A stretch of 64,000 nt of DNA. Origin: Magnetospirillum sp. (lineage in GTDB: Bacteria; Pseudomonadota; Alphaproteobacteria; CACIAM-22H2). The position numbers were made by a program, and so were the translations under genes. Positions 3,257-38,975 of this stretch are shown here, in pieces. The notes beneath the pieces were generated by a model that was not told where the DNA came from, searched no databases, and was given only the letters and a program-made list of their open reading frames with translations. The stretch lies in contig JAPZUA010000001.1 of NCBI GenBank assembly GCA_027532905.1, positions 397,565 to 461,564 of the forward strand. The letters are read 5' to 3'. How positions within the stretch are numbered: position 1 is the first letter of the stretch; the number at the start of each line of letters is the position of its first letter.

Positions 3257-3842
3257 TTCCCGAACCCCCCTGGTTTTTACGTTTGCCCAGCTTTTACGTT
3301 TGTATGCCGACAGGGTTCGCTTGGAAGCGGCCCGCTGTCAAGAACCCCATCCCATTTACGTGCAAACGATGCACCATGCCCCGAAGGCGCGCGCCCGAAA
3401 TAGGTTACCTTGCGCGACAACCTGCGACCGTCGCCGATTTATCCCCTTGATGTTGCAGGGACGTAACCACGGCGACGATTTCGGTTACATGTTTCCGAAC
3501 CCGCCAAAAGGCGCGTTTGGCCATTCTCTTTATTCACTTTTCAAACAGCACACGGCGCCGGGGGAGGGTCCGGCGCAAGATGCGCAATTCAAGCACAGGA
3601 GAAGGTTCATTTCAAGAACAGAGAAATTTAGCTTAGAAAAGAAATGTTACTTGAAATTGAAATGACGCTCCAGCGCCAACGCTCAAACAGGGGGATTTGC
3701 AAAGCTACCTGTACAAGGACGCCAAAGTCGGGCGACGCGACGGAAAGACAAGTATTGAGTCCCATAATCCGCCAATTCGAATCAGGCGCTCAAGCGAGTG
3801 AGCAGAATGAGATCCGCCGCGAACCGACCGAATTTGGGAGGC
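3257..3842. other. Intergenic region upstream of the family-5 importer
   Basis: About 590 bp without a convincing gene. It is visibly less GC-rich than its surroundings, particularly 3530-3700. It holds the probable promoter of the importer operon. It also holds two direct TTTTACGTTTG repeats, three scattered GGTTAC motifs in either orientation (near 3413, 3473 and 3483), and a small inverted repeat GCCAAA/TTTGGC at 3503-3521. I see no tRNA, terminator with a clean T-run, or insertion-sequence end. Confidence 0.5.
3275..3302. repeat. Direct repeat TTTTACGTTTG x2, possible operator
   Basis: Two identical 11-bp copies at 3275-3285 and 3292-3302, 17 bp apart, begin 19 bp upstream of the binding-protein start codon. 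A related sequence, TTTACG followed by TGCAAACG, occurs near 3355. The position suggests a regulator site for the importer, but no regulator is known. Confidence 0.4.
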
Positions 3843-34100: not shown

Positions 34101-34156
34101 GATCGCTCACGGCAGAGCGGGGCCCTGCCGAAGGGGATATCGAAGGGGGCGGGCGG

Positions 34157-35026
34157 TTGCGTGCGCAGATACCAGCGCTAGGCTCGGACGGAAACTTGCA
34201 GCGCTATCTCCAGGAGATACGCAAGTTCCCGATGCTCGAGCAGGACGAAGAATACATGCTGGCGAAAGCCTGGCGTGAACGCGAAGACGCGGCCGCCGCC
34301 CACCGCCTCGTGACCTCGCATCTGCGCCTCGTGGCCAAAATCGCGATGGGTTATCGCGGCTACGGCTTGCCGGTGGCCGAGCTCATCTCGGAAGGCAATG
34401 TCGGCATGATGCAGGCCGTCAAACGCTTCGAGCCCGAGCGCGGATTTCGCCTCGCCACCTACGCGATGTGGTGGATCCGCGCCGCCATCCAAGAATACAT
34501 CCTGCATTCCTGGTCGCTGGTCAAAATGGGCACGACGGCGGCGCAGAAAAAGCTGTTTTTCAATCTGCGCAAGCTCAAAGGCCAGATGCGCCAGCTCGAA
34601 GAGGGCGATCTGCGGCCCGAGATCGTGACCAAGATCGCGACTGACCTCAAGGTACCCGAGCAGGACGTGATCAATATGAACCGGCGCTTGGCAGCGCCCG
34701 ACCATTCGCTGAACGCGCCCGTGCGCGGCGATTTCGAAGGCGAGTGGCAGGACTGGCTCGTGGACGAGGTCGAGAGCCAGGAAACGCGGCTCGCCGAGAG
34801 CCAGGAATCGGCACGCCGCCACAAGCTGCTCGAAAAGGCGCTGGCCCAGCTCAATGCGCGCGAACGCACGATCCTGGTGGAGCGGCGCCTGTCCGAAGAG
34901 CCCGCCACGCTCGAGGATCTCAGCCAAAAATACGGCATCAGCCGCGAGCGCGTGCGCCAGATCGAAGTGCGCGCCTTCGAAAAACTGCAGCGCGCGGTCA
35001 AAGCGGGCATTGCAAGCGGCGGCTAA
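34157..35026 (+). CDS. rpoH: RNA polymerase heat-shock sigma factor (sigma-32)
   Basis: RpoH directs transcription of heat-shock genes. The product has 289 residues from a TTG (34157) placed just where the family N-terminus is expected, after a G-rich ribosome-binding stretch. Region 2 is plain (GLPVAELISEGNVGMMQAVK, RLATYAMWWIRAAIQ). The RpoH box, diagnostic against RpoD, reads QKKLFFNLRKLK. Region 4 has the HTH (TLEDLSQKYGISRERVRQIE). Heat control is often by mRNA structure around the start; I did not find a convincing thermometer. The much longer upstream frame overlaps rluD and is not coding. Confidence 0.93.
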   Translation: MRAQIPALGSDGNLQRYLQEIRKFPMLEQDEEYMLAKAWREREDAAAAHRLVTSHLRLVAKIAMGYRGYGLPVAELISEGNVGMMQAVKRFEPERGFRLATYAMWWIRAAIQEYILHSWSLVKMGTTAAQKKLFFNLRKLKGQMRQLEEGDLRPEIVTKIATDLKVPEQDVINMNRRLAAPDHSLNAPVRGDFEGEWQDWLVDEVESQETRLAESQESARRHKLLEKALAQLNARERTILVERRLSEEPATLEDLSQKYGISRERVRQIEVRAFEKLQRAVKAGIASGG

Positions 35027-35041
35027 ACGCGCGCCGTACCG

Positions 35042-35536
35042 TCAGCGCGGCAGCTTGTCTTCCTCGCCGCGCACGGACTCGCCCCATTCGGCTTCCAGCA
35101 TCGTCTTGCGCCGCTCGAGCATGCGGATGCGCGCCTGGGCGCGGTTTTCGTAGGCGATGTTCACGACGATGGGGAACAGCCAGCACAGCGCATAGGCGAA
35201 GCTCGCCGCGATATAGACCGAGACCCAGGCATAGGCGTTGCCCAGGATCTCGCGCCCGCCGGTGCGCCCGGCACTCGCAAGCCCGTCGAGCAGGAAGGGC
35301 AGCATGGCACCAGCGCTCAGCGTGCCGACGGCGATCGTGTCGAATTTCTGGCGCGACGGATCGCTCAGATACGCCGCGATCGTCGGCAGGAAGCCGCCGA
35401 TCATGTACACGCACAGCCACGGCACGTTGAAGCCGAGCCAGCCGAGGATCGCGAGCACGCCCACGCCGGCCGTGGCGAGCACCATCGGGCTGCGTTGGCC
35501 GGATTTCTTTTCTTTGGGCTTCGCCATCTTGGCCAT
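35042..35536 (-). CDS. Four-helix membrane protein coupled to the pseudokinase
   Basis: A 164-residue protein with a basic N-terminus (KPKEKKSGQRS) and four hydrophobic segments at about residues 18-34, 37-56, 67-86 and 103-128. A charged, probably coiled cytoplasmic tail follows (NRAQARIRMLERRKTMLEAE). The ATG overlaps the TAA of the pseudokinase gene (TAATG), so the two proteins are made together and probably interact in the inner membrane. No known family comes to mind. It ends 16 bp from the convergent rpoH. Function unknown. Confidence 0.75.
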   Translation of the reverse strand: MAKMAKPKEKKSGQRSPMVLATAGVGVLAILGWLGFNVPWLCVYMIGGFLPTIAAYLSDPSRQKFDTIAVGTLSAGAMLPFLLDGLASAGRTGGREILGNAYAWVSVYIAASFAYALCWLFPIVVNIAYENRAQARIRMLERRKTMLEAEWGESVRGEEDKLPR

Positions 35537-37587
35537 TACATGAGCCTCAGCAGCAGCGAGCCGATCCCGACCACGCCCGACAGGCTTGCGGCCGTAAGTG
35601 CTGCCGCCTCTTTGCCGGCATGGATGGCGAGCGTGGTGCGGATCTTGCCGCCGTTCTTGAGCTCGCCGATTTCGAACAAAGCACTTTGGTAGGATTCCTT
35701 GGCGTTCTCGAACGCGCGCGCGTCGGCGTCGCGCATCTTCTCGTTGTCCACGAGCTCGAGAAGTTTCTTGAGATCGCCCTCTTCCGAGACCTTGTTGAGC
35801 TGCTCGAGCTGCAGCGTGCGCAGCGGCAGATTGCGGATCGTGTCGATGAACTGGCGCACGAGGCCTGCGCACCACGCGGTGAGGCGCGGCACCGAGGGCG
35901 GCCCGAATTTTTCCTGCAGATCGGCCAGCAGCTTCACGATCGACAGGCCGCCGTGTGCGTCGACTTGTTCGGGATTCATGAGCGCTTTGATCTGGCCCGA
36001 ATTGGCACCGGCATGCGACGCCAAAAACGCCGCGATATGCCGATCGACCGGCTTGCGGTCAGCCCCTGCGGAAACCTCGAGCGCTTCGAGCACGTGCTCA
36101 GGCTCCGAGACCCACATACCCGCCGCCAGTTCGGAGAAACACGGCAGATTGGGATTGAGCTCGTAGAGGCAGCGCTCGATGCCGTTGCCGGGGGCCGGAT
36201 CTTCGACCCAGCGCCCGACGCGGTCGAGGATGCTGTTGGCCGGCAGGTTCTTGCCGCCGGCGAGTTTGTAGAAATGCGCCCAGCTGCCCAGAATGCGCGA
36301 GCGGATGAGATCGGTGAAAATCGGGCCGTTGCCGGGCTTGCGCATCGCGGCCGCAAGGGCTGGCCCGAGCCCGTCGGCCGTAACGCTGTGGCCGCGGAAG
36401 CGCACGGGCGCCATCGGATCGAGAATCACGCAAGCGCGCCCGACGATCGTGGCGTCGTTGTAGGTGGCGTTGGTATCGCCGGTCGATTCGTTGACAGCCG
36501 CCATCAGGCGGTCGTGCAGCTTCTGCTCGCCCAGCGACGTGCGCACCCACATGGGGATCGCACCGTTGCGCAGCTCGCGCGCGGCCGCTTCGAAATTGCG
36601 GCCCATCGCGTGGGCAAGCGTGCGCGCGTTTTTGTGCTCGCGCTTGCCGAATTTGTAGCCTTGCGCCGCGCGCGACATCTGCGGGGCGGTGTTGGGAATC
36701 TGCTGGCGCTTGCCTTCGAGCCAGCCGCGCAGATGCTCGATCGTCCAGCGATCGGGCTCCCAATCGTTGAGGAGACCGCGCAGCACATCCATCAGCACGG
36801 GCGGCAGCTTGTTGAGATCGGCGAACGTGTCAAACGAGTTCGTATCGATGCGCCGGTAGATCGCTTCGTCGGGATCAAGGCCCGCACCCGGCATCGAGCC
36901 TTGCGCGAAGGCCATCAGCGTCATGCCGAGCGCGAACATGTCGTCGGCGCGCGTGCCGTTGCCGCGGCCCTCGGGATCGGTCATCGCACCGGCCAGCGGC
37001 TCGAAGGCCGGCGGCTGGTCGAAGCCGGGCGGCGCCTGCAGGCATGGCCCCATCACCACGCGCGTGCGCGCCTCGTCGAGCCAGAACAGATTCTGCGGGC
37101 GGAGGGAGCGATGCGTGACGTTGCGCACGAAGAGTTCGCTCAAACCCGTGGCAAGCGGGCCCAGAATATGGCTCACGATCTTGGCCCCGGTCCACGCCTC
37201 GCGCGGCGCTTTGCCCGACCACAGCGGCCCGCCCTCGGGGAAGTCATAGATAAGGGCAAGCCGCTTGCCCTTGGTGCCGGGCCAGTTCACGAGGTCGAAA
37301 TCGTAGAGCCGCAAGAGGCCGGGCCGCTCGACGGTCTTGAGGGCCTTGGCCATCTCGAGGCGCGGCAGCAGATCGTTGCTGCAGATGAGGGCGACGCGCG
37401 GCACGCCGTCGTCGCGCGTGTCGGCGGCCGAAAACGCGCGCACGGTCGGCGTCGACATGTCCGGGATCGGAATGGCGGGGAATATCTGGAAGCGATTGCC
37501 GAGCGGCACGCCGCCGCCCGCAAGGGCAGCCGCCTGCGGGGCCGCTTCGCCCGGTTGCTTGGCTTCGATGTTGGCAGGTTCCGCCAT
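35536..37587 (-). CDS. Large membrane-anchored pseudokinase-like protein
   Basis: A 683-residue protein. Residues about 30-310 follow the order of a Ser/Thr kinase domain, but the catalytic residues are replaced. The VAIK lysine region is VALIC (65-69), HRD is HRS (159-161, THRSLRPQNLF), and DFG is MGP (179-181). The late-domain RADDMFALGMTLM segment is kept. The middle and C-terminal parts (310-640) are helical and of unknown type. A hydrophobic C-terminal helix (about 655-683, TAASLSGVVGIGSLLLRLM) would anchor it to the membrane. It is coupled to the four-helix protein downstream, with purA upstream. A signalling or scaffold role is inferred. Confidence 0.75.
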   Translation of the reverse strand: MAEPANIEAKQPGEAAPQAAALAGGGVPLGNRFQIFPAIPIPDMSTPTVRAFSAADTRDDGVPRVALICSNDLLPRLEMAKALKTVERPGLLRLYDFDLVNWPGTKGKRLALIYDFPEGGPLWSGKAPREAWTGAKIVSHILGPLATGLSELFVRNVTHRSLRPQNLFWLDEARTRVVMGPCLQAPPGFDQPPAFEPLAGAMTDPEGRGNGTRADDMFALGMTLMAFAQGSMPGAGLDPDEAIYRRIDTNSFDTFADLNKLPPVLMDVLRGLLNDWEPDRWTIEHLRGWLEGKRQQIPNTAPQMSRAAQGYKFGKREHKNARTLAHAMGRNFEAAARELRNGAIPMWVRTSLGEQKLHDRLMAAVNESTGDTNATYNDATIVGRACVILDPMAPVRFRGHSVTADGLGPALAAAMRKPGNGPIFTDLIRSRILGSWAHFYKLAGGKNLPANSILDRVGRWVEDPAPGNGIERCLYELNPNLPCFSELAAGMWVSEPEHVLEALEVSAGADRKPVDRHIAAFLASHAGANSGQIKALMNPEQVDAHGGLSIVKLLADLQEKFGPPSVPRLTAWCAGLVRQFIDTIRNLPLRTLQLEQLNKVSEEGDLKKLLELVDNEKMRDADARAFENAKESYQSALFEIGELKNGGKIRTTLAIHAGKEAAALTAASLSGVVGIGSLLLRLM

Positions 37588-37679: not shown

Positions 37680-38975
37680 CTACCCGCCCGCGAAAGGATC
37701 GGCCGTGAGGATCGTGTCGTTGCGCTCGGGACTCGTGGAGAGCATGGCCACGCGGCAGCCGATCAGCTCTTCGATGCGCACGATGTATTTGATTGCGGCG
37801 GCCGGGAGCTCGGCCCACGAGCGAGCCCCGCGCGTCGATTCCTTCCAGCCGCGCATCGTTTCGTAGACGGGGACCGCGCGCGCCTGCAGATGCTGGGCGG
37901 CCGGCAGACGGTCGTAGCGCCGCCCGTCGATGTCGTAGGCCACGCATACTTTGAGTTCGTCCATGCCGTCGAGCACGTCGAGCTTGGTGAGGGCGATGCC
38001 GCGAATGCCGCCCACGCGCACGCTCTGGCGCACGAGCACGGCGTCGAACCAGCCGCAGCGCCGCGGCCGCCCGGTGACGGTGCCGAATTCGTGCCCGCGT
38101 TCGCCCAAACCTTGGCCGACCGCATCGGTGAGCTCCGTCGGGAACGGGCCCGAGCCCACGCGCGTCGTGTAGGCCTTGGTGATGCCGAGCACGAAGCCCG
38201 TTGCGTTGGGTCCGACACCCGCGCCGGTTGCAGCTTGTGCGGCCACTGTGTTCGACGACGTCACGAACGGATAGGTGCCGTGGTCGATGTCGAGCAAAGC
38301 GCCTTGCGCACCCTCGAACAGGATGCGGCGGCCTTTGCGCACCGCCTCGTCGAGGAACGGCCACACCGGATCGGCATAGGGCAGAATCTGCGGCGCCATC
38401 TCTGCCAAGGATTTTTCGAGTGCGGCGCGGTCGACGGGTGCGAAGCCCAAGCCTTTGCGCAGCGCGTCGTGGTGGCGCAGCAGCTCGTCGAGCTTGGTCT
38501 TGAGCGTGGCAGGGTCCGAGAGATCGCACAGGCGGATGGCGCGGCGCGCGACCTTGTCTTCGTAGGCGGGGCCGATGCCGCGCCCGGTCGTGCCGATCTT
38601 GGCGGCCCCGCGCGCTTCCTCGCGCAGGCGGTCTATTTCGGCGTGCAATGGCAGGATGAGCGCCGCATTTTCGGCAACTCTGAGATTGTCGGGACCGACA
38701 TCCACACCCTTCTCGCGGATCGCGGCGATCTCCTTGAGGAGATGCCACGGATCGACGACCACGCCGTTGCCGATGATGCCGAGCTTGCCCGGCCGTACCA
38801 CGCCCGAGGGCAGCAGCGACAGCTTGTAGGTGACGCCGTCGACCACGAGCGTGTGGCCGGCATTGTGCCCGCCCTGGAAGCGCACGACGATTTCGGCGCG
38901 CTCGCTGAGCCAGTCGACGATTTTGCCTTTGCCTTCATCGCCCCATTGCGAACCGACGACAGTGACGTTGGTCAT
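37680..38975 (-). CDS. purA: Adenylosuccinate synthetase
   Basis: PurA joins IMP and aspartate using GTP, the first committed step to AMP. It has 431 residues, normal for the family. The N-terminal [16 protein letters not shown] carries the catalytic Asp and the P-loop. [12 protein letters not shown] and the IMP-binding [13 protein letters not shown] are present, as is the C-terminal substrate loop [13 protein letters not shown]. Its ATG overlaps the hisZ stop (ATGA), so the two are co-transcribed, an alphaproteobacterial arrangement that links purine and histidine synthesis. Confidence 0.96.

Follow-up and report, generated by a model that had tools for sequence, protein, structure and literature searches.

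A pseudokinase is generally defined as a protein that retains the kinase fold and has lost at least one catalytic motif, and to our knowledge few bacterial pseudokinases have a known function. WNK kinases are active enzymes, in which the Asp residues of HRD and DFG are kept and the catalytic Lys has moved from strand beta3 to strand beta2. Further groups are characterised in the group descriptions of O'Boyle et al. (2025; PMC12599244). There, EssB/YukC of Firmicutes is a membrane-anchored scaffold pseudokinase of type VII secretion, and MviN of Mycobacterium (ActPs3) is a membrane protein that bears a dead kinase domain and recruits a partner; ActPs3/MviN are marked by an activation-loop deletion and ActPs1 by family-specific motifs, both primarily in actinobacteria. 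According to the same descriptions (PMC12599244), the GLW pseudokinases of proteobacteria bear GLW in the place of HRD and a C-terminal membrane region, ActPs2 has Arg for the beta3 Lys and Asn for the HRD Asp, CP1 has no membrane region and is linked to a COG3899 ATPase, and DLHK keeps the HRD Asp and likewise has no membrane region.

In the present study a pair of genes between purA and rpoH was analyzed (Table 1), which lies in a DNA stretch of 64,000 nucleotides, here called the window. The larger gene codes for a pseudokinase with a C-terminal membrane helix and the smaller one for a membrane protein, its partner; papers on this family were not found in open-access PMC. An earlier note on this DNA had described a kinase-like protein with replaced catalytic motifs next to a four-helix membrane protein, an observation which holds overall and is stronger than first stated. 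An ORF check returned both frames at the places given there, including the overlap of the pseudokinase stop with the partner start (TAATG, minus strand). The pseudokinase is under purifying selection (dN/dS 0.07 versus close relatives) and is conserved family-wide, which argues against a chance locus. Across loci the gap between purA and the pseudokinase gene is mostly 67-250 bp; since a promoter scan of the locus found no sigma-70-like promoter, it is this spacing by itself that points to co-transcription of purA and the pair.

Table 1. Features of the pseudokinase locus in the window, and partner paralogues that stand alone in another genome.
Feature	Position	Strand	Basis and remarks
Tail-anchored pseudokinase	35536..37587	-	ORF, 683 aa; family of 130 unique members
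Partner membrane protein	35042..35536	-	ORF, 164 aa; 58-member alignment; hydropathy
Kinase-like domain, residues 24-293	36709..37518	-	AlphaFold; WNK3 superposition
HRS replacing HRD, residues 159-161	37105..37113	-	column 161 counts
PCL replacing DFG, residues 181-183	37039..37047	-	aligned to WNK DLG motif
Second cytoplasmic domain (predicted), residues 300-636	35680..36690	-	AlphaFold of domain alone; invariant residues
C-terminal membrane helix (tail anchor), ~residues 655-683	35539..35625	-	hydropathy; AlphaFold long helix
purA, upstream neighbour	37680..38975	-	92 bp before pseudokinase start; conserved neighbour in most loci
rpoH, convergent	34110..35026, start approximate	+	end 15 bp from partner gene end
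Stand-alone partner paralogues, genome G036	L179 4053-4496; L180 4267-4875; L181 1878-2438		

That the larger protein folds as a kinase, as the earlier note had supposed, is well supported and confidently predicted. The Pfam Pkinase match of the window's protein is weak (E 1.3e-5), and 47 of 58 homologues match as well. An AlphaFold model with 58 homologues as input (pLDDT 90, pTM 0.84) displays the bilobal protein-kinase fold, and its residues 23-292 superpose on WNK3 (5o21_A) with Z 24.0 and an rmsd of 2.7 over 254 residues, WNK1 and WNK3 being the solved structures closest to this domain.

The fold is kept and the loss of catalytic motifs is conserved across the family, which corresponds to the general definition of a pseudokinase. 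Columns were counted in 130 unique members, some of which have no letter at a given position. The beta3 Lys column 68 holds V, I or L (I68 in the window) and Lys in a single one of 127 members. At the HRD Asp position, column 161 (S161 in the window), the eight commonest letters in 128 members are A (77), S (27), G (10), N (6), E (2), D (1), K (1) and C (1), and Asp is missing in 127 of them. The sole member seen with an Asp there (HGD; locus L131) still has no beta3 Lys; it comes from genome G323, in which the pseudokinase family has three matches. Profile alignment to the DLG motif of WNK places the DFG Asp site at residue 181, where E47, D42, P34 and Q3 were counted in 129 members, 89 of which are acidic, and where the window's pseudokinase and its three paralogues have Pro. 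Thus the three residues expected of an active Hanks-type Ser/Thr kinase occur in 1/127 (beta3 Lys), 1/128 (HRD Asp) and 42/129 members (DFG Asp), and the earlier expectation that homologues would be devoid of intact catalytic residues proved right for the beta3 Lys and the HRD Asp. For the window's protein, the reported VAxx motif without Lys and HRS in place of HRD were found again; MGP had been proposed in place of DFG, where the loss of the Asp stands and the position was two residues off, residue 181 giving PCL. Other residues have been retained: the His of HRD in 124/128 members, the catalytic-loop Asn166 (Asn171 position) in 128/128, the alphaF Asp in 127/128 and Arg280 in 128/128, and the Lys168 position is now Arg (Arg163) in 120/128.

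Behind the kinase domain, where the earlier note had mentioned a long helical stretch without assignment, a second domain is predicted. Folded alone, residues 300-636 gave a confident AlphaFold model (pLDDT 92, pTM 0.83). It is largely helical, opens with two hairpin-plus-helix units and found no counterpart in the PDB (best Foldseek E 0.5; VIA Z at most 4.8); as the search covered the PDB, this does not prove a new fold. Y475, C483 and D515 are invariant among members, so that the second domain is selected at least as tightly as the kinase pocket. A Cys-His-Asp catalytic triad was considered and dropped, because the His beside D515 is Asn in some members. The C-terminal membrane helix had been recognised before, and hydropathy predicts it in 102 of 105 members; in the AlphaFold model the tail anchor is the end of a single long helix (616-682).

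The partner has about four membrane segments by hydropathy only, in line with the four helices described earlier, and a tail with an EWG motif; P51 and W151 are invariant in the 58-member alignment. Neither the partner nor the second domain belongs to a family in Pfam, NCBIfam or PADLOC. Identities as MdtG or as a riboflavin transporter, each a single weak match, were set aside. Genome G036, from another family of the class, contains three extra partner-type proteins with no detectable pseudokinase nearby (Table 1), so the membrane protein can exist apart from the pseudokinase and may have a role of its own or other clients. In L181 a hybrid histidine kinase (1010-aa frame) directly precedes the paralogue, at a distance of ~35 bp. 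In G157, of the same genus, four partner matches were counted versus one pseudokinase match (match counts only).

Pseudokinase and partner form a genetic unit. Separate whole-genome searches for each family in the same 387 alphaproteobacterial genomes found both in 129, the pseudokinase alone in 1, the partner alone in 0 and neither in 257, and co-occurrence, as had been suggested, is nearly complete; because the genomes are related, the Fisher p value (3e-104) should not be read as a true probability. Weak kinase matches of the class search (E 1e-4 to 1e-9) were taken for ordinary kinases and left out of membership, and very diverged members may have escaped the first-look filters used on the genomes. 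The partner gene directly follows the pseudokinase gene in 107 of 111 loci, and three of the four non-adjacent loci end at or near a contig end. Among 61 close and distant relatives, the partner was present in 28/28 genomes whose pseudokinase is full-length or a clear homologue; in the remaining 33 a clear partner match was found only in G054, as a fragment at a contig end. Protein distances of pseudokinase and partner correlate across 35 loci after correction for purA (partial r 0.79), and the pair is kept in near-complete genomes of 1.4-2 Mb.

The surroundings of the pair are conserved as well, as the earlier note had proposed for purA and rpoH: the common order serC-serA-hisZ-purA-[pair]-><-rpoH-rluD occurs in distant families, and when neighbourhoods were clustered, no third conserved gene emerged besides those of the purA/rpoH context. 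In Azospirillum thermophilum purA, the pair and rpoH lie together on a large plasmid, and the pair is annotated as 'serine/threonine protein kinase' and 'hypothetical protein'; the former is the NCBI label of Azospirillum pseudokinase copies (L166 5935-7971, L167 5923-7968). The L167 pair has a different context and adjoins a sensor histidine kinase and a class A beta-lactamase. Full-length members were found in Alphaproteobacteria only, apart from one contig (L088 3207-5679) with the pair in the same rpoH context, from a MAG labelled Nitrosovibrio (Betaproteobacteria), which is probably a case of binning contamination.

The two genes have also been duplicated together. The window's genome holds four diverged pairs, each pseudokinase with its own partner, so that three further paralogous pairs are added to the one known from the earlier note; the four paralogues form separate clades, supported at 99-100%, and four pseudokinase matches, including fragments, were obtained in every genome searched of the window's genus. 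The whole pair occurs in tandem copies in G144, G261 and G327. Joint loss is seen too, and some genera of the window's family have neither gene. In G014 the convergent rpoH ends within about 30 bases of the purA stop and the pair is absent; it was lost, or never present, while the purA-rpoH junction stayed. In G018, a relative, an acetyltransferase-like gene lies between purA and rpoH. In G021 the pair is missing and an Hsp20-like gene follows purA on the purA strand (L178 about 3270-3810), close to the position of the heat-shock sigma factor. All PF00069 matches in the window's genome belong to this family and no other protein-kinase-family gene was found there, so that in that genome the pair is unlikely to scaffold a resident Hanks kinase or to be its target.

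How the kinase fold is used can be read in several ways. The retained residues leave non-canonical catalysis possible in some members, to judge from the alignment: Arg163, Asn166 and the acidic residue 181 could serve another transfer reaction, as in SelO and other atypical kinase-fold enzymes, to which the pseudokinase here may be comparable. However, Pro181 and the lack of a beta3 Lys are common to the window copy and its three paralogues, hardly any member has the HRD Asp, and we regard such an enzyme as rather unlikely. A genuine serine/threonine kinase with residues displaced in the manner of WNK would agree with the closest solved structures and with the NCBI label, but WNKs keep both Asp residues, whereas the HRD Asp is nearly universally lost here; moreover, no more than 12/58 homologues have K at position 50 in beta2, where 10/58 have R, and columns 48-56 contain no conserved Lys. 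This makes an active kinase the least credible of the readings weighed here, with hardly any chance of being correct.

Only slightly better stands an anti-phage defence or toxin-like module, which we hold to be very improbable. The kinase domain is nearest to mad6, MkoA and PD-T4-6 in PADLOC (best match mad6, E 6e-8; mad6 and MkoA both score weakly), and the family reaches an hhalign probability of 98.7 to a kinase-DUF4011 protein; yet the defence HMMs mostly reflect generic kinase similarity, and the pair has a fixed housekeeping context across families, is mostly single copy and mostly inherited vertically, and is retained in small genomes.

It seems more probable, and we hold this with moderate confidence, that the pair is an inner-membrane module of a non-catalytic, tail-anchored scaffold or ligand switch with a bound partner and a client-binding second domain. 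The C-terminal helix would hold the larger protein to the membrane, with two domains in the cytoplasm, and the kinase fold, presumably no longer engaged in phosphate transfer, would act as a scaffold or ligand-gated switch; the catalytic-loop Asn and the Arg that replaces Lys168 have been kept, and two thirds of members also retain an acidic residue at the DFG position. The multi-pass partner would bind the pseudokinase via membrane helices and its conserved EWG-motif tail, and the second domain would offer a surface to a client, probably an envelope or housekeeping one. What has been shown is the predicted fold, the lost catalytic residues, the purifying selection and that the two genes are inherited, duplicated and lost together; what we infer in this model is that the two proteins bind directly and form a physical complex of the inner membrane, and likewise their orientation, the ligand and the client. 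The stand-alone partner paralogues of G036, the residues that would allow non-canonical catalysis and the lineages without the pair speak against it. The closeness of purA hints at a connection with adenine nucleotides without demonstrating one. A further-reaching version, an undescribed alphaproteobacterial signalling or assembly module of the membrane, in which a pseudokinase, a new fold and a dedicated partner are coexpressed with purA, sense adenine nucleotides or energy state and control an envelope process, is speculative and in our view doubtful.

The pair is present in about a third of the sampled alphaproteobacterial genomes, and the 'kinase' label on Azospirillum copies would misdirect work on phosphorylation. 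With one constant partner, natural paralogues, natural losses and no further protein-kinase-family gene detected in the window's genome, it offers a clean case, and the second domain adds a confident prediction unmatched in the PDB.

Compared with the known systems, the larger protein shares the lack of a beta3 Lys with WNK, its best structural match; however, a conserved Lys in columns 48-56 is absent and the HRD Asp is lost. Like the GLW pseudokinases it has a C-terminal membrane region, yet HRA or HRS is found instead of GLW, with the His (124/128) and the Asn kept. V, I or L at 68 and mostly A or S at 161 differ from the Arg and Asn of ActPs2, and a C-terminal helix in 102/105 members and Pfam matches to kinases only differ from CP1. 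Like EssB/YukC it is a membrane-anchored pseudokinase, the scaffold role being that of EssB/YukC, but it occurs in other taxa and with another second domain; the recurrent neighbours at the pair loci are serC, serA, hisZ, purA, rpoH and rluD, and secretion genes were not seen there. Like MviN it joins a dead kinase domain to the membrane, but by a single C-terminal helix and not as a multi-pass protein, and no resident Hanks kinase that could phosphorylate it was found in the window's genome. As far as these groups are described in O'Boyle et al. (2025; PMC12599244), the family fits none of GLW, ActPs2, CP1, DLHK and EssB/YukC. Its nearest detectable kin, by profile comparison, are helicase-linked bacterial kinases: the family profile matches large kinase-DUF4011 proteins over the C-lobe and the beginning of the second domain, and these proteins resemble the DLHK group as described in that source. 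One such protein (L161 355-3270, a 2380-aa frame) has the same kinase-associated hairpin-helix unit. In contrast to the pseudokinase, the kinase-DUF4011 protein examined has the HRD Asp and a DUF4011 region, DLHK is described as free of a membrane region, and the helicase-linked kinases are without a small membrane partner, whereas the pseudokinase studied here has a C-terminal helix and a partner of its own.
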